Virus record (IMG/VR): IMGVR_UViG_3300027805_000080
Coordinates: 1-25,619 of that record
Strand: one strand, 5' to 3'
Source of the DNA: a virus
DNA: 25,619 bases
Shown here: one piece after another, positions 2,941-22,883 of the stretch
Numbering within the stretch: position 1 is the stretch's first letter
Layout: each line of letters begins with the position of its first letter
Program-made: the position numbers and the translations under genes
The notes under the pieces: model-generated
Database searches by the model: none
The model's input: the letters and a program-made list of their open reading frames with translations, nothing else
Told to the model about the DNA's origin: nothing

Positions 2941-3197
2941 TCTAAATTATCCTTTAACCATCCAATAACGGTCCATTGTTTTACTACAAAAGTTCCATCA
3001 CCAAACACTGGATTAGCAAAATCGTTCAGAATTTCAAATGGATTTTCCGGATCATCTAACCTAACACCATGCTGTTTACAGAAACCAATCAATTCATCTC
3101 TATCATAAAATATCTTGCTGGGACCATGGACACCGGGCATTTCGAATGTGAATGATTTCCTCCATAATCCTATGTCTCTGGGATAAAAGGTAATCAT
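2937..3197 (-). CDS. Hypothetical 86-residue protein
   Basis: Starts MITFYPRDIGLWRKSFTFEM. The ATG at 3197 overlaps the stop of MNERIKEL copy C and uses the GGAG in its FGV codons. The longer reading frame upstream is not used, because it would lie within copy C. The middle has FYDRDELIGFCKQHGVRLDDPENPFE, and the end is WTVIGWLKDNLE. It looks like a compact alpha/beta protein; no family recognised. Confidence 0.65.
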   Translation of the reverse strand: MITFYPRDIGLWRKSFTFEMPGVHGPSKIFYDRDELIGFCKQHGVRLDDPENPFEILNDFANPVFGDGTFVVKQWTVIGWLKDNLE

Positions 3198-3394
3198 TCT
3201 GAAACTCCGAAATGTCTTTTCAGTTGAGTACAATATGCTTTTCCGGTTAGCATGGCGTAATTCTCTTCGCCAATAACGTCGATACATTCCCGAACAATCA
3301 ACTCGGCAAACTTTTCCAGTTCCTGCGAAGAAAGTAAATAGTTGGGGCCGGTAAATCCTTGTTTTTCGGCAAGTTCTTTAATTCTTTCGTTCAT
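3194..3394 (-). CDS. MNERIKEL-family small protein, copy C
   Basis: The shortest copy, 66 residues: MNERIKELAEKQGF, EKFAELIVRECIDVIG, then RHFGVSE. It is the first gene of the overlapping operon running to the left edge. A short AGGA precedes the ATG closely, and a sigma-70-like promoter lies just upstream (3405-3434). Function unknown. Near-identical termini among copies A-C make it a natural substrate for unequal recombination. Confidence 0.75.
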   Translation of the reverse strand: MNERIKELAEKQGFTGPNYLLSSQELEKFAELIVRECIDVIGEENYAMLTGKAYCTQLKRHFGVSE

Positions 3395-4681: not shown

Positions 4682-4915
4682 TTAGTCAACTACCCCGAAC
4701 CTCATCTTGATCATCTTGCCGCAGCTTTGAGCAGTGGCCTTAGTCTTAAGAGCCAGCTCGTCGGAGTTGATGTTCTCGGCGATGTCAGCAAGACTCTCAC
4801 ACTGCCGGACACATTCCTTGACGATCAGCTCGGCAAACTTCTCTACCATTTCACTCTGCGCATCGAAAGGGGAAAATCCAGCGTTCTTTGCAAGTTCACG
4901 AATTCGTTCGTTCAT
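4682..4915 (-). CDS. MNERIKEL-family small protein, copy D
   Basis: 77 residues from the ATG at 4915, chosen because AGAGGATTGA lies just upstream and because it restores the family start MNERIRELAKNAGF; six extra upstream codons are possible. The middle has VEKFAELIVKECVRQCESLAD and the end is MRFGVVD. Unlike copies A-C, its stop is TAA and does not overlap the next start, and its GC content is higher. It sits behind its own promoter (4941-4969), away from the other three copies. Function unknown. Confidence 0.72.
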   Translation of the reverse strand: MNERIRELAKNAGFSPFDAQSEMVEKFAELIVKECVRQCESLADIAENINSDELALKTKATAQSCGKMIKMRFGVVD

Positions 4916-4940
4916 TTCAATCCTCTCAGTCATTCAAGCT

Positions 4941-14294: not shown

Positions 14295-15485
14295 TCATAT
14301 TAAATTTGAAAGCCGATATGATGTCGCTGCAGCAAGGGTCCATCCTAGGTGGCCGTGGCCACCATGATACCACAATCCATCCGATTTGCTTTTGATAATC
14401 ATGGGCAGCATGTCACTTGACATGGGCCTTAGACAAGCCCAGCGAGAATATACCGTAGTGTTTATGGATGGGAAATTTTCATTTACCCAGTTCAGCAATG
14501 GTTTAATTCTATCTTGGCATATATCTAGATTGTTTCCATCTAGTTCTGCTGTTCCCGCTACTCTAAGTCTGTTTCCCAGTAGCGAACATACTATCTTTTT
14601 ACTATCATCAAGCAGTGAAATTTCTGGTGCTGATGCTGCCTCAGGTATAGTTATAGAATATCCTTTTACAGGATAAATGTTAAGATAATCACCATGCGCG
14701 AAAGACCACTTTGTCATTTCATGCCCATTGCAAAGAACAACTGCATCATATGATTCATGTATTCTTTCGTCTATATCATTCTGCTTATAAATTATATTTT
14801 TGCCACCAATACCTATAACATCTGTATTAAATTTAAAAGTAGTACCTAATGATTCACAGACAGATTGTAACTTTTGGCAGAATAAATGGGCATCACCCGT
14901 CCAATCAGACATCGTTAGAAAACCACCCTTAAGATTTTTAAAATCACGCATTCCTTTATCGCGTTGGATTATTTCTTCAGGTGTTAGGAATTTCCATTCA
15001 ATACCATTATTTTCAAAAAGTGATTTAGAGCTGTATGCTTCTTCTATTGATTTTTCATCTGAGTATACGTGCATAATGCCACTTTGACGCCTATCAAATT
15101 CTATTTGTTCTGAGTCAATAAGCTGCTCATACAGTTGTTGCGATTGCTTTGCCAACATTATAGTTCTAATAGTGTTTCTTTCATGAGTGTTATTAAGCAC
15201 GTGTCTTAAAAAACCAGCAAGCCAAAAAATCTTTGATGGGGTTGGCATTGGCCTAATAAGAAGAGGCGCATCTTTCTTAAGCATCCACTTTAACCCCTTC
15301 TTTACGTTATTCCACGTATTCCATGTTTCAGAATTACATACTGAAAATTGCCCGCCATTAGCATAAGAGCATTTCATGGCGGGTGATGGTTCTCTGTCAT
15401 AAACAGTTACGGAATGATTCTTCTTCGTTAGATAATACGCAGATGTCATTCCTACTATTCCAGCGCCTATAATTGCTATCTTCAT
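14295..15485 (-). CDS. FAD-dependent D-amino acid dehydrogenase-like oxidoreductase (DadA family)
   Basis: 396 residues. A dinucleotide-binding Rossmann motif GAGIVG (7-12) is followed by VYDRE, which ends the second strand; the C-terminal GGHGHLGWTLA (about 373-383) is the typical FAD-contact region of DadA-type enzymes. These oxidatively deaminate D-amino acids (or sarcosine/glycine in related groups) and pass electrons to an acceptor. It ends about 25-35 residues earlier than E. coli DadA (432). Its ATG overlaps the stop of the polymerase C-half gene (ATGA), so it is translated in the replication operon. Such an enzyme is rare in phages; substrate is uncertain. Confidence 0.85.
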   Translation of the reverse strand: MKIAIIGAGIVGMTSAYYLTKKNHSVTVYDREPSPAMKCSYANGGQFSVCNSETWNTWNNVKKGLKWMLKKDAPLLIRPMPTPSKIFWLAGFLRHVLNNTHERNTIRTIMLAKQSQQLYEQLIDSEQIEFDRRQSGIMHVYSDEKSIEEAYSSKSLFENNGIEWKFLTPEEIIQRDKGMRDFKNLKGGFLTMSDWTGDAHLFCQKLQSVCESLGTTFKFNTDVIGIGGKNIIYKQNDIDERIHESYDAVVLCNGHEMTKWSFAHGDYLNIYPVKGYSITIPEAASAPEISLLDDSKKIVCSLLGNRLRVAGTAELDGNNLDICQDRIKPLLNWVNENFPSINTTVYSRWACLRPMSSDMLPMIIKSKSDGLWYHGGHGHLGWTLAAATSYRLSNLI

Positions 15486-16051
15486 ATAATTCCTGATGAT
15501 ATTAGGTGTAATTGTAAAACAATAACCATAGCATATGCTATAGCATGCGATTTTTTAAAGGAGTAACCAGTTTCATCTTTTGAATAAAGAATTCTTCTGG
15601 TGGCTTCTCTTTGTGTTTTATATAGTTTAATAAATTGTTTTTTGCCCGGCCTTATGAGAGCCAAGACGTCTGCTAGTTCTTCTATTGACTTGGGTCTAAT
15701 AGAATCAAGAACTTCTCCGTGATTTGATAATTGAAATAATTTCTTTTGGTGTTTAGGGTCAACCAAAAGTTGCCAGTCTGGTTCAATTTCCAAAAGTTGT
15801 TCGATTTCTTCTCTTGATTTAAAGTTATCATACACACTTAAATGAAGAAAATCTATCTTGAAAAAGCCCAACTGCTCTGCACTTTGGTATGGAATTGCAC
15901 ACAACTTGGTTACTTGATCTACAGGAATATTTTGTGGATGAACGCCACAGGGGTGAGGATACAATTGCCCATCCTTTACCATGCTCGCTCTTACCCATGG
16001 AAAAATATTCATAGGATTAAATGATGTGGGTGTGTCAATATCTATATCCAT
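15482..16051 (-). CDS. DnaE-type DNA polymerase, C-terminal half of a split catalytic core
   Basis: 189 residues. It begins with MDIDIDTPT, matching the catalytic PDFDxDF strand of DnaE (E. coli D401/D403). HPCGVHPQ (about 33-40) corresponds to the KHAGGVV block, and GFFKIDFLHL (62-71) holds the third catalytic Asp (D67). LFQLSNHGE, LALIRPGKK (131-138) and SFKKSHAIAYAMV (164-176) follow the order of DnaE. The GRGS block that normally precedes PDFDxDF is absent here but ends the protein at 22374-22883. PHP, beta-binding and tau-binding regions are absent. The start overlaps the upstream stop (TGATG). Together the two proteins would make a minimal C-family palm/fingers. Confidence 0.85.
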   Translation of the reverse strand: MDIDIDTPTSFNPMNIFPWVRASMVKDGQLYPHPCGVHPQNIPVDQVTKLCAIPYQSAEQLGFFKIDFLHLSVYDNFKSREEIEQLLEIEPDWQLLVDPKHQKKLFQLSNHGEVLDSIRPKSIEELADVLALIRPGKKQFIKLYKTQREATRRILYSKDETGYSFKKSHAIAYAMVIVLQLHLISSGII

Positions 16052-16824
16052 CAGAAATCTAGCTCACGAGATATTTGATTAATGTCCTTGATGATATTTT
16101 TATTTTCTTCAAATTTTTTTGCCCAATAAGAAGAATTAACTATAGTATTAAATGCTGAAAGCTGATGCTTATCTAGGGTCTTCAGCAGCACGCCAAATCT
16201 TTTAGAACAAAATAGAAACCATGGAGATAGTCGACGCTGTCTAACTAATGATATTATTCTGGCAGCACCTAAGTGCTGAAATATCTGTTTAAATTCCACA
16301 CCTTCCTTTTCGCTCAAGTCCAAAAGATAATTTATTGTAGATGATACTTCATCCATCGGATCAGCCATCTTATCTACCCATTCTAGATAAACAGAATAAC
16401 ACTGTTCTCTGCACCACAAAATTGGCAAAATATCTGCCTCAATCATTAGAGATATATATTTTTCCGGATTAGCTATATTAGCATCTTTGACTAGTTCAGC
16501 AAAGTTAATAAATGCTCTATAGTAACGCGATTCCATAAATGCTACGGACGAAGGCTGACTGTATTTTTTCAAGCGCATCCATTCACGATAATAACTATAA
16601 GCAGCTTGTCCTAGGGGTGACATCAACTCTTGAGTACGTCTTTTAGGTTCACAATGATGCTTCATAAAAGTCATCTCATTGCGAAACCTATGATTGCAAT
16701 AATGGCAATGCCAATTCTTAGCTTTTGTTAGATTTATCTCGGCATCTTCAAGCGGAATCCTTCGAGCAGCAATTTGCTCTTCATTAAGCATTTTGATGTC
16801 TTTCGTTGAGTCTTGCTGGGACAA
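16051..16824 (-). CDS. Zinc-finger protein of the replication operon
   Basis: 257 residues from a TTG at 16824 behind GGAGG with 6-base spacing; an ATG 11 codons further in (16791) is the alternative. Residues about 38-60 carry a C2H2-type finger: WHCHYCNHRF, then FMKHHCEPKRR, with Cys at 40 and 43 and His at 56/57. The rest is helical and rich in aromatics (YYREWMRLKKYSQPSSVAF, WCREQCYSVYLEWVDKMADP). It lies immediately upstream of the polymerase C-half, so a DNA-binding accessory role in replication is plausible. No precise family assigned. Confidence 0.78.
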   Translation of the reverse strand: MSQQDSTKDIKMLNEEQIAARRIPLEDAEINLTKAKNWHCHYCNHRFRNEMTFMKHHCEPKRRTQELMSPLGQAAYSYYREWMRLKKYSQPSSVAFMESRYYRAFINFAELVKDANIANPEKYISLMIEADILPILWCREQCYSVYLEWVDKMADPMDEVSSTINYLLDLSEKEGVEFKQIFQHLGAARIISLVRQRRLSPWFLFCSKRFGVLLKTLDKHQLSAFNTIVNSSYWAKKFEENKNIIKDINQISRELDF

Positions 16825-17416
16825 CTGTTACCTCCTCACCCTGCCATACAATTCCAGGTTTTATTGGCTCTCCAAGTGACCTGAAAAATGTGATGAAATC
16901 CCTAATGTAGTGCTCGTCAATGTGCTGTGTATTTACAGTAGCATGAACTCCAACTGCTACTGATCCATAGTTTTTGATTTCTATTGTTGGCACTACTTTA
17001 TATTCTTCTTTTAGGAACTGATTAAGAAGAATATCCTTCTTGACAACTGCACGATTAAATTCTTCAGCGGGCTGCATCTTATACAGCTTACCATAATTAG
17101 GATCAGTCGCATCATAAACTAATCTAGTTTCTGGAAATTCGACCAATGAGTATGCTTTGTCTTCTGCTTCGTGCCAAGCATGCCATTCAGCAGTAACCAT
17201 TGCTACCGAAAAATATCTTTTTAGCTTAGTATGAAAGAACCTAAAGTCTACCCACACCCATGGGCGATCTGGTTCATAAACATGATCACAATAAAAGTCA
17301 CCGCCATAAGAGCAATCTGGATACTTCTTCATAAGATTCTTAACACCCATCCAGCGCGCCTTGCGCTGTTTGCGATTTGAGTCCATTCTAGACATCTTAG
17401 AGAATCTTTCAGGCAT
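16784..17416 (-). CDS. Hypothetical 210-residue protein
   Basis: Start ATG at 17416 has GGAG 7 bases upstream and overlaps the previous gene by 8 bp; a longer frame to 17491 is unlikely because it lies inside that gene. N-terminus strongly basic (MPERFSKMSRMDSNRKQRKA), followed by a Tyr/Trp/His-rich region (DRPWVWVDFRFFHTKLKRYF, EWHAWHEAEDKAYS) and a C-terminal part with IRDFITFFRSLGEPIKPGI. Probably an alpha/beta enzyme or nucleic-acid-binding protein, but nothing is recognisable. It lies in the 44-62-polymerase stretch. Confidence 0.72.
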   Translation of the reverse strand: MPERFSKMSRMDSNRKQRKARWMGVKNLMKKYPDCSYGGDFYCDHVYEPDRPWVWVDFRFFHTKLKRYFSVAMVTAEWHAWHEAEDKAYSLVEFPETRLVYDATDPNYGKLYKMQPAEEFNRAVVKKDILLNQFLKEEYKVVPTIEIKNYGSVAVGVHATVNTQHIDEHYIRDFITFFRSLGEPIKPGIVWQGEEVTVVPARLNERHQNA

Positions 17417-17756
17417 CCATTTTCTCCAATAAGAGCAAAGCATCCTTTTCTTTAAGAATCGTAATCTTGACAAAGTCCTTGCTTTTGTCAATTATGTTAC
17501 TAAGCACCCCAAATGACCACCCTGACGTGCCATAGCTTCCCTTGTGGCATATGTAGGTACTACCACTTGATTGTGGCATGCTGTAGAAGTTATCCTTCAA
17601 TGATGATGACTCAACACCCGATGAAAGCTTCCATGATTCTCCATGCACAAATCCGCCATACCAGGTGGCAAATACTCGGTAATACGTATCTAATTTGGGA
17701 TCTTCTTGCGGTTCAAGCTTAACTAAAACCCAACGATCCGGTTTATATTCGCTCAT
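17409..17756 (-). CDS. Hypothetical phage protein, 115 residues (YRVFATWYGG motif)
   Basis: MSEYKPDRWVLVKLEPQEDP is followed by TYYRVFATWYGGFVHGESWK, then SSGVESSSLKDNFYSMPQSS, GSTYICHKGSYGTSGW and a C-terminal helix. The 'DRW..VK......YRVFA.WYGG...G.SWK..SG' block and 'GS.Y.CHK..YG.S' look like a small family found in many large phages, function unknown. AAGGA lies 5 bases before the ATG. It starts 1 base after the gp62-like gene. Confidence 0.75.
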   Translation of the reverse strand: MSEYKPDRWVLVKLEPQEDPKLDTYYRVFATWYGGFVHGESWKLSSGVESSSLKDNFYSMPQSSGSTYICHKGSYGTSGWSFGVLSNIIDKSKDFVKITILKEKDALLLLEKMDA

Positions 17757-17757
17757 G

Positions 17758-18213
17758 TTATTCCTTTTCTAGCTTTTTAATCTCATCTTTCTGCATGCCA
17801 AGATCCTGCGCCATTTGCATAACTTCTTCATGGCTTGGAAATGGATTGAGTAGCGCAGCTTCTCTAAGAGACATGTCAAAATACTCAGCTACTATTGAGA
17901 GTGATTGCACATTCTTCTTTTTAGATTTTGTACTGATCCAATTGTAGCGCTTGGATGTTTTAGATGAAGCGACCTGAAGAAGCTGCATAAGAAGGTGCGG
18001 GTGCTTGCCAAGTGTAAACACTCTTGGATTTACAAACTCGTTGAGCATCATAATTTGACGTTCATCAGAAGTGCCGGACATCCAGCGCATTACAACAGGC
18101 GGCGCAAATCCCTTGCGCTCATCTTCAGAAAGTTGCGCGTAAATATCCCCGCTCTTCGCGCTGTTGAGCCTGTTCAAAAGATCAAAGATATCCAGCTTAT
18201 AGTTAGTTGCCAT
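17758..18213 (-). CDS. Clamp loader small subunit, T4 gp62-like
   Basis: 151 residues (T4 gp62 is 187). The pattern KGFAPPVVMRWMSGTSDERQ, MMLNEFVNPRVFTL, then KHPHLLMQLLQVASS, KRYNWI and AEYFDMSLREAALL matches what I recall of gp62-like proteins of T4-superfamily phages. KRY..W and a final '.Y....REA' also line up with T4 gp62 (KRYGKW, RYQVNTNDAIN). With the gp44-like ATPase upstream it would load the sliding clamp onto primed DNA. The start has no ribosome binding site; a TAA 4 bases upstream suggests coupling. Homology to T4 gp62 itself is remote, so this call also rests on gene order. Confidence 0.65.
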   Translation of the reverse strand: MATNYKLDIFDLLNRLNSAKSGDIYAQLSEDERKGFAPPVVMRWMSGTSDERQIMMLNEFVNPRVFTLGKHPHLLMQLLQVASSKTSKRYNWISTKSKKKNVQSLSIVAEYFDMSLREAALLNPFPSHEEVMQMAQDLGMQKDEIKKLEKE

Positions 18214-18219
18214 GAGCTA

Positions 18220-18681
18220 TTATACACTCGCTTTCTTTGATTTATTTTCTTCATGCCAAGCAAGAATTTCCTTTAGTGGCACGTGGTAAATATCGTAAGA
18301 ATTGCTATTATCAGTCCAGATAATCTTAACAGTCCAGTCCTCTACTTGGAGAGCTTCCCACTGTTCAGCTGTAAGTTCTTTCTTGAGCCAAACATCCCAA
18401 GGTAAAAGCTCAAAGGTTGAGAAGTAAAAGTTGAAAGTTCCATTTCTGCCATGATATGCCATAACTACATCCCATAGGTCATCTAGAACAGAGATAAATG
18501 TTTTTCTGCGAAGCAAATCAATCATGGAAGCAGCTTCTTCTAAGAGATCAGCAATCCTGTCAGGAAGCCCCTCTTGAACGCTCTTTCGATCAGGAATTTG
18601 GCGCCGAATCTCAGCGCGCTTGATTAGGCGATAGACAATGTCATCCTTCCCAACTTTTGCTTCTAGCTCTTCTGCGTTCAT
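18220..18681 (-). CDS. Hypothetical 153-residue protein
   Basis: The N-terminal half is a charged helical region (MNAEELEAKVGKDDIVYRLI, KRAEIRRQIPDRKSVQEGLP, then DRIADLLEEAASMIDLL), a pattern also seen in small phage proteins of unknown role. The C-terminal half has LPWDVWLKKELTAEQWEALQ and WTVKIIWTDNSNSYDIYHV, possibly a small beta domain. It starts 1 base after the 18683 gene ends. Function unknown; it sits between the two clamp-loader genes. Confidence 0.7.
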   Translation of the reverse strand: MNAEELEAKVGKDDIVYRLIKRAEIRRQIPDRKSVQEGLPDRIADLLEEAASMIDLLRRKTFISVLDDLWDVVMAYHGRNGTFNFYFSTFELLPWDVWLKKELTAEQWEALQVEDWTVKIIWTDNSNSYDIYHVPLKEILAWHEENKSKKASV

Positions 18682-18682
18682 A

Positions 18683-18928
18683 TCATAACCCCTTTATCTT
18701 TATCTTCCACCAAAGATGAGTAGAGATCCACGCTGTTCCATAGTAGCGCTGATAACCGTGAATAAAACTATGCCGCCAATCTCCCTGCTTTGGTTCAGGA
18801 AGCTTAGAGCGTTCTACATACTTTAGCTTGAATACTTCACCGCCTGAAGTCATTGGCTGCACACCAACTATTTCAGCAGCAATCACCTTAGGATCAATGT
18901 TGCGTATAATTGGAAGAATGATGCTCAT
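18683..18928 (-). CDS. 81-residue protein with a T4 gp23-like N-terminal motif
   Basis: MSIILPIIRNIDPKVIAAEI is followed by VGVQPMTSGGEVFKLKYVE. This is strikingly close to the conserved strand of T4 major capsid protein gp23 (VRRAIPNLIAFDICGVQPM...GQVFALR). The rest of the capsid protein is missing and the C-terminus (HSFIHGYQRYYGTAWISTHL...) is unrelated. I believe similar mini-proteins occur in other phages. Whether it relates to gp23 by descent and binds capsid, or matches by chance, is open. It lies in the replication operon, an odd location for a capsid-type motif. ATG at 18928; no strong ribosome binding site was noted. Confidence 0.65.
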   Translation of the reverse strand: MSIILPIIRNIDPKVIAAEIVGVQPMTSGGEVFKLKYVERSKLPEPKQGDWRHSFIHGYQRYYGTAWISTHLWWKIKIKGL

Positions 18929-18985
18929 AGATTTCCTAGATTTTGTTCAATGTATGCCATGAAATTACACAGTAGGTAAACGATA

Positions 18986-19324
18986 TCACTCTCGTCCACG
19001 TTGTCTGTTCCATTCTTCCATCTCTTTACGACGCTGTTCTTGCTCTTCTGAATAGTTTACCGGAGGAACATCCTCGGGGTTGTCAGTTAGCACCGCTCGG
19101 TCAGCGATGTAGTCGGCCCAAGCATGGAGAATTTTGCGAACTCGATCACGACCCATGCACTCATTGTGGATAAGAAGATCACCATCCTTTGAAAGGAAGA
19201 CCTCGAGCTGGCCGAAGCCACAGCCCTTCCAGCCCCAATCGAAGTAGGTCTTTGCCCAATGCAGACCGCTAACCTCAGGTGGGTTAGCCTCCATCATAGC
19301 CTTACGCTCTTCAATTGACAGCAT
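18986..19324 (-). CDS. Hypothetical 112-residue protein
   Basis: Start ATG at 19324 behind AAGGAAG, overlapping the upstream gene by 14 bp; a start 14 codons upstream lacks support. The sequence MLSIEERKAMMEANPPEVSG is followed by YFDWGWKGCGFGQLEVFLSK, then IHNECMGRDRVRKILHAWAD and an acidic/basic tail (NYSEEQEQRRKEMEEWNRQR). The centre 'W..CGFGQL.....DG....NE.M....V...L...AD' resembles small proteins of unknown role in several phages. No function assigned. Confidence 0.72.
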   Translation of the reverse strand: MLSIEERKAMMEANPPEVSGLHWAKTYFDWGWKGCGFGQLEVFLSKDGDLLIHNECMGRDRVRKILHAWADYIADRAVLTDNPEDVPPVNYSEEQEQRRKEMEEWNRQRGRE

Positions 19325-19541
19325 TTGCTTCTTCCTTATCTCTTTGAATGATCTTCGTGCATGCATCCATGGTCATGATGCATGCGTCTGGCATTCCGCT
19401 AGGGAACGTGCAGCAACAATCAGAACAGATCCATGAGCACTCGCCGCGTGCTGCTTGCAGTGTCCATTGTTGGGTGATGTGATTCATTTCATGAAGAGTC
19501 ACATCAAGATTTTCTGCGGTAGTGATGAAGATTCCGCTCAT
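19311..19541 (-). CDS. Cys-rich 76-residue protein
   Basis: The ATG overlaps the stop of the clamp loader gene (ATGA). The protein begins MSGIFITTAENLDVTLHEMN; the centre is unusually rich in cysteine: ECSWICSDCCCTFPSGMPDA followed by C, then a further Cys at about 61. Clustered cysteines plus HEMNH suggest metal binding. It lies immediately after the clamp loader gene and before the 112-residue gene, which it overlaps by 14 bp. Function unknown. Confidence 0.65.
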   Translation of the reverse strand: MSGIFITTAENLDVTLHEMNHITQQWTLQAARGECSWICSDCCCTFPSGMPDACIMTMDACTKIIQRDKEEANAVN

Positions 19542-20449
19542 AGCTTTCCTAGAGAGATGAAGCAGGCCGCCAAATTGATCTCAGTATCTGCAACAATTGA
19601 GTGCTTGTACAGGTGCTCAGCTATTACTAGGATAGCTTCTTCCTTATCATTCACTTTGAGCTTGTCAATATTTTCATAAAGAAATCGATAGACATCTTCA
19701 TGTTCTTCTTTAGTTGCTGAGTCACAAACAAGCTTTCTTGCTACCTTAAAATTACCTGCTGAAATAGCGTCAAGTAGCCCAAAGCGCCAGTCGCTAAAGC
19801 CATCATCAGCCGACTTGGGATCTAGAAGCTTACCACCTTGAGAATTTCCCTGAATTAGCTGGATAGTTTTTCTGATATCTGGATACCCAACATCAACATA
19901 CGTTAACAGAATTTCTGCATCATACTCTATGCCTTCCTTCTCAAGAATTTCTGCCATTCTAACAGCAACCTTTTCCTTGTCAGGAGCTTTGAAGTAAAAC
20001 TCTTGGAAGCGGGATTTAAGTGGAGCAATTATTTTGTTTGAATAATTACAGGTTGCAATGTACCTGCAGTTTGTTTGCGTTTCATCCATTAGACTACGAA
20101 GAAGGGCTTGTGCATCTAGAGATAGATAATCAATCTCTTCAAGTCGCACCACCTTAAACTTGCCAAGAGGCATAGACATGGCAAATGATGTTACCTTGTT
20201 ACGAATTGCCTCAATTTTTTCATCTGAGCAATTTACCTTTATCACATCAGAAGGATCGACATTTAGGTCATGAATGAGCGCTTTTGAGATAGACGTTTTT
20301 CCAGTTCCTTGAACGCCTGCCAAGAACAAATGCGGGATATCCGCAGAATGAACAAATGATTCAAACTTAGATTGTTGTCTGTCATCTTGAAAGATAACGT
20401 CAGCCACTGTTTTAGGACGATAGCGCTCTACCCAAATATTTGTTTTCAT
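19538..20449 (-). CDS. Clamp loader AAA+ ATPase, T4 gp44 / RFC small subunit-like
   Basis: 303 residues (T4 gp44 is 319). It begins with WVERYRPKTVADVIF, the typical RFC box. It carries Walker A GVQGTGKT (45-52), a Walker B position VVRLEEID (100-107; E in place of the first D), sensor 1 IATCNY (131-136) and the arginine-finger KSRFQ (145-149). Residues after about 200 form the helical collar. It hydrolyses ATP to open the sliding clamp and load it at primer ends. The first gene behind the promoter at 20480-20507. Its ATGA overlap couples it to the next gene. Confidence 0.9.
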   Translation of the reverse strand: MKTNIWVERYRPKTVADVIFQDDRQQSKFESFVHSADIPHLFLAGVQGTGKTSISKALIHDLNVDPSDVIKVNCSDEKIEAIRNKVTSFAMSMPLGKFKVVRLEEIDYLSLDAQALLRSLMDETQTNCRYIATCNYSNKIIAPLKSRFQEFYFKAPDKEKVAVRMAEILEKEGIEYDAEILLTYVDVGYPDIRKTIQLIQGNSQGGKLLDPKSADDGFSDWRFGLLDAISAGNFKVARKLVCDSATKEEHEDVYRFLYENIDKLKVNDKEEAILVIAEHLYKHSIVADTEINLAACFISLGKL

Positions 20450-20479
20450 GCTGGAAATAATAAAAGTTATGGATTACTT

Positions 20480-20507
20480 ATTATAATCCAACGTACAGAA
20501 TATTAAA
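20480..20507 (-). promoter_or_regulatory. Candidate sigma-70 promoter for the clamp-loader/polymerase operon
   Basis: Minus strand TTTAAT (20502-20507) - 16 bp - TATAAT (20480-20485), 30 bases upstream of the clamp loader start, with the same spacing as the repeated promoter though not its sequence. It sits in the short gap after the membrane protein gene. Confidence 0.5.
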
Positions 20508-20513
20508 CAACAA

Positions 20514-21626
20514 TCAGATATTGTCCTGATATATGCTTTTTATTTTTGATAGATTAGATCTATGATCTGTATCTACCTGAATGTCAGCATTATCTTTTAC
20601 TATTATGTCTTCCAGTAAAGATTTTGCGGGAGGGCTAGATGTATCTATGACGATTTCTATTGAGTCTTGCTGCTGCAGCTTACTATCATCAGATAAAGCT
20701 GGCAATTCACCAGTTGTCGTTTGTTCATCTAGCATTTCTTCTTTTTGCTCTACTGCTGGCTCTACTGCTGGTTGAGCAGTAGTTAGAGTATGTATTTCCA
20801 GTAATGACGGTGCAGCAGGTATTACATCAAGACCTTCTTTATTTGTTTCTGTCAAATGATTGTCAGAAGTAATATCATCTTTAGATAATCCAGTATCAGT
20901 ATCAGTGTCATTCAATTTACTATCATCAGATTCTTTTTTATTCTTTTCCCGGTTTCTTTCTTCTAAAAGAAAGTTTCCTGCCAGAAGCAGTGCTATCGCA
21001 AGTGGATCAAATACAAATATAATGATAAAAATTACCCATTTAACAGCTTTTTCTGGCGTAGTGTCAAATGCTTCTGCGATATAAATTATAGGGCCAACCT
21101 CAACATTCTTTTTTATAGAATCTATTTTGAGAGATGGAAGTTCTTTATCTATTTCTGCAATACGTTCATTTATTCTGTTGACCTCGGGTGCAAACTGTCT
21201 CATTAATTGAGTTCTACCGCGCACCATGTTTTCTGGTAATTGCGCTATTTGCTTGTCAATTTCTTCTTTACGTTTTTGCAGCCTTGCCTGTTCTTCTTGC
21301 AAAGTTTGGATCATAACATTTTGGGTGTTAGTTCCTGAAATTGCCTTCTGAAATTCGGCAGAAAGGAATCCAAACGCTCCTGCTGAAGTAATAATCATAA
21401 GAACTACAGCAGCAACAGTCATATAACTTCTCATCACGAGATTAATATGATTCCACTTTTTATATAGAAAACTAACGCTAACTACTTTTCCTATATCTAA
21501 TGCAATTGCCAATGCGATAATAATCGGATTGGCAGAAAATAATGATGCCAAACCCAGTACGCTTACATATGTTCCAATTGTTTCAATTAAAAACGCCGAA
21601 AATAAAACTAGGATGGTAAAAGGCAT
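20514..21626 (-). CDS. Membrane protein with coiled coil and acidic tail, 370 residues
   Basis: Three hydrophobic segments occupy residues about 3-30, 34-55 and 67-90. A periplasm- or cytoplasm-facing coiled coil follows (about 100-165, ENMVRGRTQLMRQFAPEVNR flanked by Glu/Lys/Gln heptads), then a fourth segment at about 198-221 (FVFDPLAIALLLAGNFLLEE). The last 140 residues are low-complexity, Asp/Ser/Thr-rich and probably disordered. It resembles membrane proteins of large T4-like phages by layout only; function unknown. Inner-membrane location inferred. GAGGAG precedes the ATG closely. It follows the GroES-like gene by 10 bases. Confidence 0.78.
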   Translation of the reverse strand: MPFTILVLFSAFLIETIGTYVSVLGLASLFSANPIIIALAIALDIGKVVSVSFLYKKWNHINLVMRSYMTVAAVVLMIITSAGAFGFLSAEFQKAISGTNTQNVMIQTLQEEQARLQKRKEEIDKQIAQLPENMVRGRTQLMRQFAPEVNRINERIAEIDKELPSLKIDSIKKNVEVGPIIYIAEAFDTTPEKAVKWVIFIIIFVFDPLAIALLLAGNFLLEERNREKNKKESDDSKLNDTDTDTGLSKDDITSDNHLTETNKEGLDVIPAAPSLLEIHTLTTAQPAVEPAVEQKEEMLDEQTTTGELPALSDDSKLQQQDSIEIVIDTSSPPAKSLLEDIIVKDNADIQVDTDHRSNLSKIKSIYQDNI

Positions 21627-21636
21627 CTACTCCTCT

Positions 21637-21954
21637 TTAATACGCATACGTGACACTTTCATCATTTCCAATAGCTATGACCTTAGTGTCATCAGATTTC
21701 CAATATGATTTTCCTTCAAATTTTATTTCTTTAGTCCACTGAAGAGCTTCTATTAAAACTATATCACCCACGTTAAAATCTGTCACCTTGCTTCCAACGG
21801 CTTCAACTTTTCCCCACCTAGCATATTTGCCCTGAGTATCAAAGTCTTGATTTGTTAGAATAATCTTTCCACTGTTTCTTTCGATAAATCTACCACCAGC
21901 AGTGACTGAAAAAAATGAAAACAAAAAGGAATTTCCGAGCGGTTTAAGCGCCAT
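21637..21954 (-). CDS. GroES-like co-chaperonin (T4 gp31-like)
   Basis: 105 residues. The start (MALKPLGNSFLF), the mobile-loop-like segment TAGGRFIERNSGKIILTN and the closing strands (ARWGKVEAVGSKVTDFNVGD, then VLIEALQWTKEI) fit the small beta-barrel of GroES/gp31 proteins (T4 gp31 is 111). In T4 this subunit replaces GroES on host GroEL to fold the capsid protein. The sequence is closer in feel to the co-chaperonin-like proteins of other T4-type phages than to bacterial GroES. GGAG lies 8 bases before the ATG. It follows the 95-residue gene behind the late-type promoter. Confidence 0.72.
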   Translation of the reverse strand: MALKPLGNSFLFSFFSVTAGGRFIERNSGKIILTNQDFDTQGKYARWGKVEAVGSKVTDFNVGDIVLIEALQWTKEIKFEGKSYWKSDDTKVIAIGNDESVTYAY

Positions 21955-21997
21955 GATATTATCTCCTATATTGATGATCTTAATGATGATATCTGTA

Positions 21998-22285
21998 TTA
22001 CGCGATTTCTGTCTTATTTTTATTTTTCTTTGGTGCTTCTGTAATATCAGAATCAGAAGCAGAAGCAGAAATGATAGCAGCTTCCATTGATATATTTAAT
22101 GCACTTGGCAATTCTTGCGCAAGTTGGTTAGTGTTTTCTTTTATTTTTATTCCATCTTTTTCATCAATGAATCTTCTTCGTTGATCAACCCCCACTGGTA
22201 CAGGAGTTACCGCTAATTGCTCTTTTATAGACAGAAGATCAAAATCAACAATCTCGCCTCGAGCGCTTCTTGCTTTTTTGCTCAT
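21998..22285 (-). CDS. Hypothetical 95-residue phage protein (RSARGEIVDFDLL motif)
   Basis: Start ATG at 22285 is 9 bases after GGAG; a TTG five codons upstream overlaps that site. It begins MSKKARSARGEIVDFDLLSI, followed by KEQLAVTPVPVGVDQRRRFI and a Ser/Asp/Lys-rich tail (SASASDSDITEAPKKNKN). The ARG..VDFDL..IK.Q......P..V..R..FID motif looks conserved among large phages, but I know no function. A candidate late promoter lies 60 bases upstream, so it may be a late or virion-associated protein, possibly co-expressed with the co-chaperonin. Confidence 0.7.
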   Translation of the reverse strand: MSKKARSARGEIVDFDLLSIKEQLAVTPVPVGVDQRRRFIDEKDGIKIKENTNQLAQELPSALNISMEAAIISASASDSDITEAPKKNKNKTEIA

Positions 22286-22343
22286 TGGTATTTTCTCCAA
22301 TAGGATATGGGTATAAATATTATAATTGCTTGTGCAATCTGTT

Positions 22344-22351
22344 TATTTATT
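22344..22351 (-). promoter_or_regulatory. Candidate T4-type late promoter (AATAAATA)
   Basis: The minus strand reads AATAAATA about 60 bases before the start at 22285, matching NATAAATA. It stands between the polymerase N-half and the genes for the 95-residue protein and co-chaperonin. The region is AT-rich, so chance cannot be excluded. Confidence 0.4.
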
Positions 22352-22353
22352 AT

Positions 22354-22364
22354 CCGCCCGGCGG
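22354..22364. other. Short GC-rich palindrome
   Basis: CCGCC-C-GGCGG, flanked by TTATT/AATAA arms, lies between the stop of the polymerase N-half and the late-type promoter. The loop is only one base, so hairpin formation is doubtful and no U-tract follows. Protein-binding site or chance. Confidence 0.25.
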
Positions 22365-22373
22365 TTAATAACC

Positions 22374-22883
22374 TTAATCATGGAAAAATTCTTCTAACGG
22401 TATGTTAAACCTGATTGGGTCTACTTTATGAAGACCTAAAATGAACAAAACTAGAGATGCACAAGATGATCCTCTTCCCACTCCCCAAAGAGTATTTGTT
22501 TCCTTTAAGACATCTACGACATAAATTAGCGCTCTAAAAACATCGGTTAGTTTTCTAGTCTTTATTTCATGCAATTCTCTTTCGGCGCGATGTTCATAAG
22601 CATGCCCCAATTTACTTGCTTTCTGCATTATTAAAGAATCTAAATCTAGATTTAGATATTCTTGAGGTATTTTCCATGAAAAGTCAGGATCAAATACTGA
22701 TTTTGACTCTGCACCTATTTCATAATCAGAAAGATTATTAAACAGCTGTATATCTTCATTCAGATAATTGACAATTATTTTTTCCTGTTCGACACCACTT
22801 AAAAATAGCGATGGGACGTGCTCAGGATTAACCTGATTAGTCCCGTCAAAGTAAAGAATTCTATCTTTTAGTTCAGTCTTCAT
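22374..22883 (-). CDS. DnaE-type DNA polymerase, N-terminal half of a split catalytic core
   Basis: 169 residues. The C-terminal third is clearly DnaE-like: LWGVGRGSSCASLVLFILGL (133-152) followed by HKVDPIRFNIPLEEFFHD, matching the GPGRGSGAGSLVAY...DLDPLRF...FERFLN block. It stops exactly where DnaE would continue to PDFDxDF, which begins the protein at 15482-16051. The preceding helices (residues 72-130, with HAYEHRAERELHEIKTRKLT) correspond to the region just before GRGS. There is no PHP domain. The start overlaps the preceding gene by 11 bp, and there is no ribosome binding site of note. It should bind template/dNTP phosphates but cannot catalyse alone. Confidence 0.85.
   Translation of the reverse strand: MKTELKDRILYFDGTNQVNPEHVPSLFLSGVEQEKIIVNYLNEDIQLFNNLSDYEIGAESKSVFDPDFSWKIPQEYLNLDLDSLIMQKASKLGHAYEHRAERELHEIKTRKLTDVFRALIYVVDVLKETNTLWGVGRGSSCASLVLFILGLHKVDPIRFNIPLEEFFHD

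Follow-up and report, generated by a model that had tools for sequence, protein, structure and literature searches.

The 25,619-nucleotide stretch considered here (the window) is the whole of the IMG/VR virus record IMGVR_UViG_3300027805_000080; its edges are the ends of the record, and the record is a fragment. It raises the question of whether two small genes, lying on one strand with 6,322 bases between the stop of the first and the start of the second, together encode the catalytic core of a family C DNA polymerase, the family of the bacterial replicase DnaE (Pol III alpha), as a preliminary description had proposed. The two proteins, called here the N-half and the C-half (358 aa in total), probably form a two-subunit minimal family C core that assembles non-covalently, and which is predicted to serve as an accessory polymerase in a T4-type replisome that also contains a family B polymerase (PolB).

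Both open reading frames (ORFs) are present at the positions originally given, on the - strand (Table 1). The start of the N-half overlaps the upstream ORF by 11 bases, and the ATG of the C-half shares one base with the stop of its own upstream ORF (TGATG); twelve same-strand ORFs of at least 60 aa lie between the halves, not all of which need be genes. The N-half matches PF07733 (E 5.3e-13, 49.6 bits for a cut-off of 23.9, profile positions 16-94 of 260) and phrog_11127 (E 1.3e-31, positions 2-170 of 171), which agrees with its assignment to a segment of the DnaE palm whose end lies past the GRGS loop, found here at residues 134-140 (GVGRGSS). The C-half matches PF17657 (E 7.1e-6, 25.9 bits for a cut-off of 22, profile positions 25-112 of 166) and phrog_11778 (E 9.1e-63, positions 7-193 of 197). 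As described, it opens at the DxDxD strand and contains the third catalytic aspartate, RPGK and KSHA, the motif residues being D2, D4, D6, K65, D67, R134-P135-G-K137 and K167-S-H169-A. Judged from these profiles, chance is excluded as the source of the family matches of either ORF. In a profile search against solved structures the N-half family finds DnaE at E 1.6e-8. A Pfam scan of both halves returns PF07733 and PF17657 only, with no PHP domain, in keeping with the claim of a PHP-less core. Public records often label the C-half “putative membrane protein” or “hypothetical protein” (JN882285.1, KU574722.1, MK773491.1 and others).

AlphaFold2 models, built with alignments of IMG/VR relatives and compared with known folds by VIA-align, locate the break between the two proteins. 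In the N-half model (mean pLDDT 94.3, pTM 0.73), residues 67-169 correspond to E. coli alpha 275-394 (5fku_A, Z 9.9) and residues 71-169 to 279-394 of 2hnh (Z 10.0); M. tuberculosis 5lew scores highest (Z 11.9), and non-polymerase rows begin at Z 2.5. The first 66 or so residues have no good PDB match in this fold comparison (rows only at Z 2.1-2.5). In the C-half model (mean pLDDT 95.3, pTM 0.87), residues 1-189 correspond to E. coli alpha 401-782 (2hnh, Z 9.9, rmsd 3.8, 182 residues aligned) and to Taq alpha 462-839 (3e0d, Z 10.1). DnaE and PolC give rows of Z 6.5-10.1, the first other row following at Z 3.9, and all eight Foldseek matches at E ≤0.001 are Pol III alpha. The break falls between E. 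coli residues 394 and 401, just before the first catalytic aspartate, and the two ranges adjoin without overlap. Among 16 phages aligned, N-halves stop 2-4 residues past a conserved E-F pair (in Slicko01, E-L), while no more than 18 residues precede DxDxD in the C-halves, the start codons having been chosen by a script. The break was said to be free of intein-like sequence, and this extends to all 16 of these phages, which have no extra sequence at either break and no room for intein parts. Each half alone lacks half of the active site, as had also been stated, the GRGS part and the DxDxD part being on separate chains. The further claim that almost no segment is missing or duplicated holds at the break and fails inside the C-half, where about 190 residues are absent.

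This shortfall follows from three spacings that are shorter than in E. coli DnaE: from the first to the third aspartate (65 residues in the C-half versus 154, and 63-67 in all 16 phages aligned), from the third aspartate to RP (67 versus 84) and from RP to the histidine of KSHA (35 versus 121). Gaps open in the alignment in the interval from DxDxD to the KHAGG-type motif, and in the part of the fingers with the E. coli sequences YQEQ and LRRAMGKK; we take these to be the thumb and a portion of the fingers that contacts the nucleotide. With the thumb region and much of the fingers missing, the two pieces do not amount to the nearly complete polymerase core first described.

The residues expected at the active site are conserved in the relatives compared. 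Of 101 distinct C-half sequences in the loci, 100 can be read at the positions concerned, and the three aspartates of DxDxD, the Lys and Asp of KxD, the R-P pair and the histidine of KSHA are each kept in 100/100; the catalytic aspartates were part of no search pattern. Moreover, D2, D4, D6, K65 and D67 are invariant in a C-half alignment of 84 rows (A3, comprising 83 of 88 filtered IMG/VR C-halves and the window). The corresponding N-half alignment (A4) holds 75 of 76 IMG/VR N-halves and the window, the sequence dropped (L254) being a broken single-chain gene. The R-G-S of the GRGS loop is present in 99/99 N-type sequences, three of which are single-chain proteins, a count biased by the use of the GRGS pattern as one of two N-half search patterns. 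Among GAP32, CBB and Kaldavass, Nei-Gojobori dN/dS ratios are 0.014-0.028 for the C-half and 0.024-0.042 for the N-half, with dS of 0.7-1.5 in these six close comparisons. Six more distant comparisons comprised four for the C-half without usable dS and two for the N-half, which gave 0.19 and 0.24. Both halves are under strong purifying selection.

A tblastn search with the C-half gave matches in 105 of 50,697 phage records, 63 of which cover at least 80% of it; Gordonia phages account for 35 of the 105, and the one opened, Sadboi, has a 1,113-aa DnaE. C-half relatives are encoded by at least 594 IMG/VR stretches, and the loci taken from the two IMG/VR scans are the best 80 among the matches listed. 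The preliminary description had suggested looking for the same pair in other phage genomes, and the split turned out to be conserved: both halves are present in all 15 named phages, which were chosen for having one half (XacN1, Atu_ph07, GAP32, PBECO4, RaK2, PA5oct, Phosso, Slicko01, RAS14, Vibrio 2.275, XaC1, Munch, CBB, Kaldavass and MIJ3), and in 11 of the 13 IMG/VR contigs of at least 150 kb among the loci of the two scans. Relatives lie on contigs of up to 389 kb, and the 141-kb circular record Slicko01 carries the pair too. The window proteins are 24-35% (N-half) and 35-47% (C-half) identical to those of the 12 named phages compared. No fused form was found, no ORF in 223 loci matching both half profiles at E 1e-3. 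In a tree, 19 split pairs are grouped apart from 10 non-split sequences with a bootstrap of 100, consistent with a split that arose once within this sample; the tree was computed from 275 trimmed columns, the sequences being very divergent and the two groups separated by a long branch, and leaves out CBB and MIJ3.

Relatives also encode a second type of polymerase. PF00136 (PolB) was found in 15/15 named phages and in 12 of 13 IMG/VR records of at least 150 kb, the miss being G010 (162 kb); none was found in the 25.6-kb record of the window, itself a genome fragment. A YGDTDS or YADTDS motif was read in 13 of the 15 named phages, the other two being Slicko01 and Atu_ph07. PolB is spread over more than one open frame in NC_042013.1 (Atu_ph07), OQ508956.1 (Slicko01) and the IMG/VR record G005, and a split intein in the PolB of phage MIJ3 is reported in the available text of PMC6892783. 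No second DnaE appeared, PF07733 marking above its cut-off the N-half only in 20/20 records searched; CBB has one further match, below the cut-off and with three stops. Given how widely PolB is present, the relatives possess a polymerase besides the split enzyme. Another replicative polymerase combined with loss of the catalytic aspartates had been named as evidence against a two-part enzyme: the relatives have the former, and the aspartates are retained in every distinct C-half with letters at these positions.

The two genes bracket a clamp-loader cassette, in the window and in 20 related records. Both halves of the pair are found in 22 loci, corresponding to 20 distinct records (XacN1, RAS14, Slicko01 and 17 IMG/VR contigs), and in 20/20 of these the order on one strand is N-half, gp44, gp62-like gene, zinc finger, C-half, with the halves 4.3-14.9 kb apart. 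A GroES-like gene is part of the cassette in 19 of the 20, not in Slicko01, and the window has the same order with the GroES-like gene included. Counted per locus, among loci with that much flanking sequence (two contigs, L070/L147 and L072/L155, being included twice), a gp44-type ATPase homologue lies within 5 kb downstream of the N-half in 60/64 loci and a GroES-like homologue in 63/64; within 6 kb upstream of the C-half, a gp62-like homologue is found in 57/62 and a zinc-finger homologue in 56/62, while primase and gp41-type helicase both lie within 6 kb downstream of it in 27/38. For the remaining 12 named phages, the distance from one half to the other is at least about 29 kb (about 180 kb in Atu_ph07, about 224 kb in Phosso), and in 11 of these 12, as seen in the loci fetched, the C-half stays with the gp62-like gene, zinc finger, primase and helicase.

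The gp62-like assignment derives from phrog_225, matched by 4 of 11 members of the family (best 2.9e-10); against solved structures, the family gave no clamp-loader match at E up to 5 in the PDB search. RaK2-like phages carry such a gp62-like subunit (L003:4083-4925 in GAP32, L005:4091-4885 in RaK2), and gp62 is stated as not found in the available passages of the RaK2 paper and of the CBB paper (PMC5259590). In an alignment of 13 zinc-finger proteins (A6), C40, C43, H56 and C58 are invariant, and the family has zinc-finger matches in the PDB. Two identities considered for this protein found no support: when A6 was compared by hhalign with the thumb stretch of E. coli, the probability was 0.1%, which speaks against detectable sequence homology to the thumb only and not against a functional stand-in, and the probability was likewise 0.1% against the gp59 helicase loader of the T4 record. 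The GroES-like gene between the N-half and gp44 is an odd companion for replication genes, and the best PHROG of its product is phrog_931 “head morphogenesis” (3.6e-6).

Table 1. Features of the window, and single-chain DnaE-like proteins of marine loci
Feature	Location	Strand	Description	Evidence
N-half of split family C polymerase	22374..22883	-	169 aa; palm segment with GRGS loop	PF07733, phrog_11127, AlphaFold2 model
C-half of split family C polymerase	15482..16051	-	189 aa	PF17657, phrog_11778, AlphaFold2 model
GroES/Cpn10-like protein	21637..21954	-	weak assignment	PF00166 E 0.0017, below cut-off; phrog_3188 “co-chaperonin GroES” 7.2e-4
gp44/RFC-type clamp-loader ATPase	19538..20449	-		phrog_168 8.2e-83
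gp62-like small clamp-loader subunit	17758..18213	-		phrog_225 “clamp loader” 1.3e-5
C2H2 zinc-finger protein, candidate polymerase partner	16051..16824	-	stop overlaps C-half start	phrog_11058 1.5e-46
Single-chain DnaE-like protein	L117:15691-17373; L108, L120, L224-L303		marine loci	

Elsewhere in the window, four small ORFs (1704-1937, 2695-2940, 3194-3394 and 4682-4933) share MNERI(K/R)EL near the start and F-A-(E/N)-L-I-(V/I)-(K/R)-E-C further on, and appear by eye to be diverged paralogues.

In the two-subunit polymerase that we favour, the N-half would contribute the palm segment with the GRGS loop binding the phosphates of the incoming nucleotide, and the C-half the aspartates that bind metal, the lysine next to them and an abridged fingers part, so that both together would form one Pol-beta-like active site, the joining of the two being putatively non-covalent. 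Since the pair is without PHP, thumb region, clamp-binding parts and much of the fingers, its grip on DNA would have to come from partners; likely candidates are the clamp and its loader (gp44, gp62-like), and the zinc-finger protein whose gene lies between the halves. Such an enzyme could act beside the family B replicase on the second strand, in gap filling or in repair, and would not be the sole replicase. A possible, if tentative, extension is a two-polymerase replisome made of T4-type clamp loader, PolB and thumbless family C core, in which the zinc-finger protein would replace the thumb as the grip on DNA.

Several results weigh against a two-subunit polymerase. The C-half family profile finds DnaE structures only at E 0.029, and the Foldseek TM-scores of the C-half versus Pol III alpha are 0.51-0.54 over the query. 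Two long contigs hold one half only, the N-half in G006 (347 kb) and the C-half in G017 (292 kb), and both may be fragments. In addition, polymerisation is not assured, because the C-half lacks the thumb region and the LRRAMGKK stretch of the fingers. Finally, the partner of the C-half could differ in a marine clade where the gene lies beside a single-chain DnaE. It is conceivable, though rather unlikely in our view, that the halves do assemble into a working active site whose product is a nucleotidyltransferase or an NTP-sensing replisome regulator, not a template-directed polymerase. The retention of metal and phosphate ligands with the thumb region and LRRAMGKK stretch gone would suit such a function, as would the strong purifying selection, the PolB already present and the lysine that follows RP in 99/100 distinct C-halves, where E. 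coli DnaE has G-P; however, the neighbours are replisome genes, and the fingers residues that remain (RP, KSHA) are of the polymerase type.

The marine single-chain protein bears on whether the halves pair at all. Marine phage contigs commonly encode this DnaE-like protein of about 560 aa (140 pattern matches), which has a partial thumb and no PHP. Like the split pair, it is made of family C palm and fingers without PHP; unlike it, it is one chain with 124-129 residues from the first to the third aspartate, has a fingers stretch aligned to LRRAMGKK and forms a separate tree group. It was considered as the closest relative of the split form, and the tree gives no supported placement beside it. 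A protein of this kind, in a 575-aa frame, is also encoded by LR756508.1 (L304), a 484-kb uncultured phage in whose whole record no separate split half was found. It weakly matches both half profiles, A1 (7.8e-5) and A2 (9.7e-12), each built from 12 of the 15 named phages and the window (A1 without GAP32, Kaldavass and MIJ3; A2 without CBB, Kaldavass and MIJ3). A split C-half lies 3.9-7.6 kb upstream of the single-chain gene in 31 of the 32 marine loci with enough upstream sequence, primase and gp41-type helicase standing between them in 36/36 loci holding both, and no separate N-half was seen in 14 marine contigs (25-91 kb) with a C-half and a single-chain DnaE. These observations, together with the separation of the genes into different clusters in 12 of the 15 named phages, would fit a situation in which the halves do not pair, the N-half working with the clamp loader and the C-half with primase and helicase or with the single-chain DnaE. 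We regard this as improbable, as each half lacks half of one active site all of whose residues are kept, and both halves occur in 26 of the 28 long or complete records examined.

That the two genes are degenerate, non-functional DnaE remnants could be read from the large internal deletions and from the presence of PolB in relatives, and is already contradicted by selection: with dN/dS of 0.014-0.042, catalytic residues in 100/100 and at least 594 C-half relatives in IMG/VR, it is highly improbable. In cyanobacteria, DnaE is encoded as two genes and joined by a split intein; trans-splicing of this type, which the PolB intein of MIJ3 might bring to mind, is for the phage pair the least probable explanation of all, there being no space for intein parts at either break in 16/16 phages, and the pair differs from the cyanobacterial one in being intein-free and in its minimal core.

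If the favoured reading is true, a thumbless family C active site of 169 + 189 residues would be related to the bacterial replicase but very small, and would reveal which parts a family C catalytic core can spare. As PolB and a T4-type clamp loader occur beside the family C pair in relatives, bacterial and archaeal/eukaryotic-type replication parts are found in one genome. The clamp-loader cassette, moreover, offers partners that can be tested.

With E. coli and Thermus DnaE the phage pair shares the GRGS loop, DxDxD, K-x-D, RP and KSHA, and its palm and fingers segments align; it differs in consisting of two chains, in having neither PHP nor thumb region, in its shortened fingers and in having nothing after the KSHA helix. 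The window proteins match the PHROG families phrog_11127 and phrog_11778 (“DNA polymerase”) over nearly their whole length, with no difference of kind. Individual members have been noticed before: as far as the available text of these papers goes, the CBB paper notes a truncated 172-aa alpha subunit (PMC5259590), the Atu_ph07 paper an alpha subunit (PMC6102473), and PF07733 is reported in 51.9% of a marine jumbo-phage cluster (PMC9123017). No experimental study of the pair was recognised by title in the literature searched, which was covered in part.

The arrangement itself is not new. In the available passages of PMC7824862, Iyer et al. (2021) describe a split minimal Pol III alpha in group 2.2 jumbo phages, beside PolB, with separate N-terminal NTP-binding and C-terminal Mg/DNA-binding proteins and none of the other Pol III domains. 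In their proposal the two proteins together make up an enzyme, perhaps for one strand or for repair, and the split pair is viewed as a model of an ancestral form. The window shares the separate GRGS protein and the separate Asp/DNA-binding protein, and Atu_ph07, a member of their group 2.2 (matched by phage name, not accession), has both window homologues. The word “thumb” does not occur in the available main text of that paper, nor was the clamp-loader bracketing found in its available passages, which call the two genes distantly located, whereas in the window and 20 related records they bracket a clamp-loader cassette of 4-15 kb. The pair described here is thus real, conserved and striking, and is another case of a system whose main idea is already in print, to which the clamp-loader bracketing adds detail.

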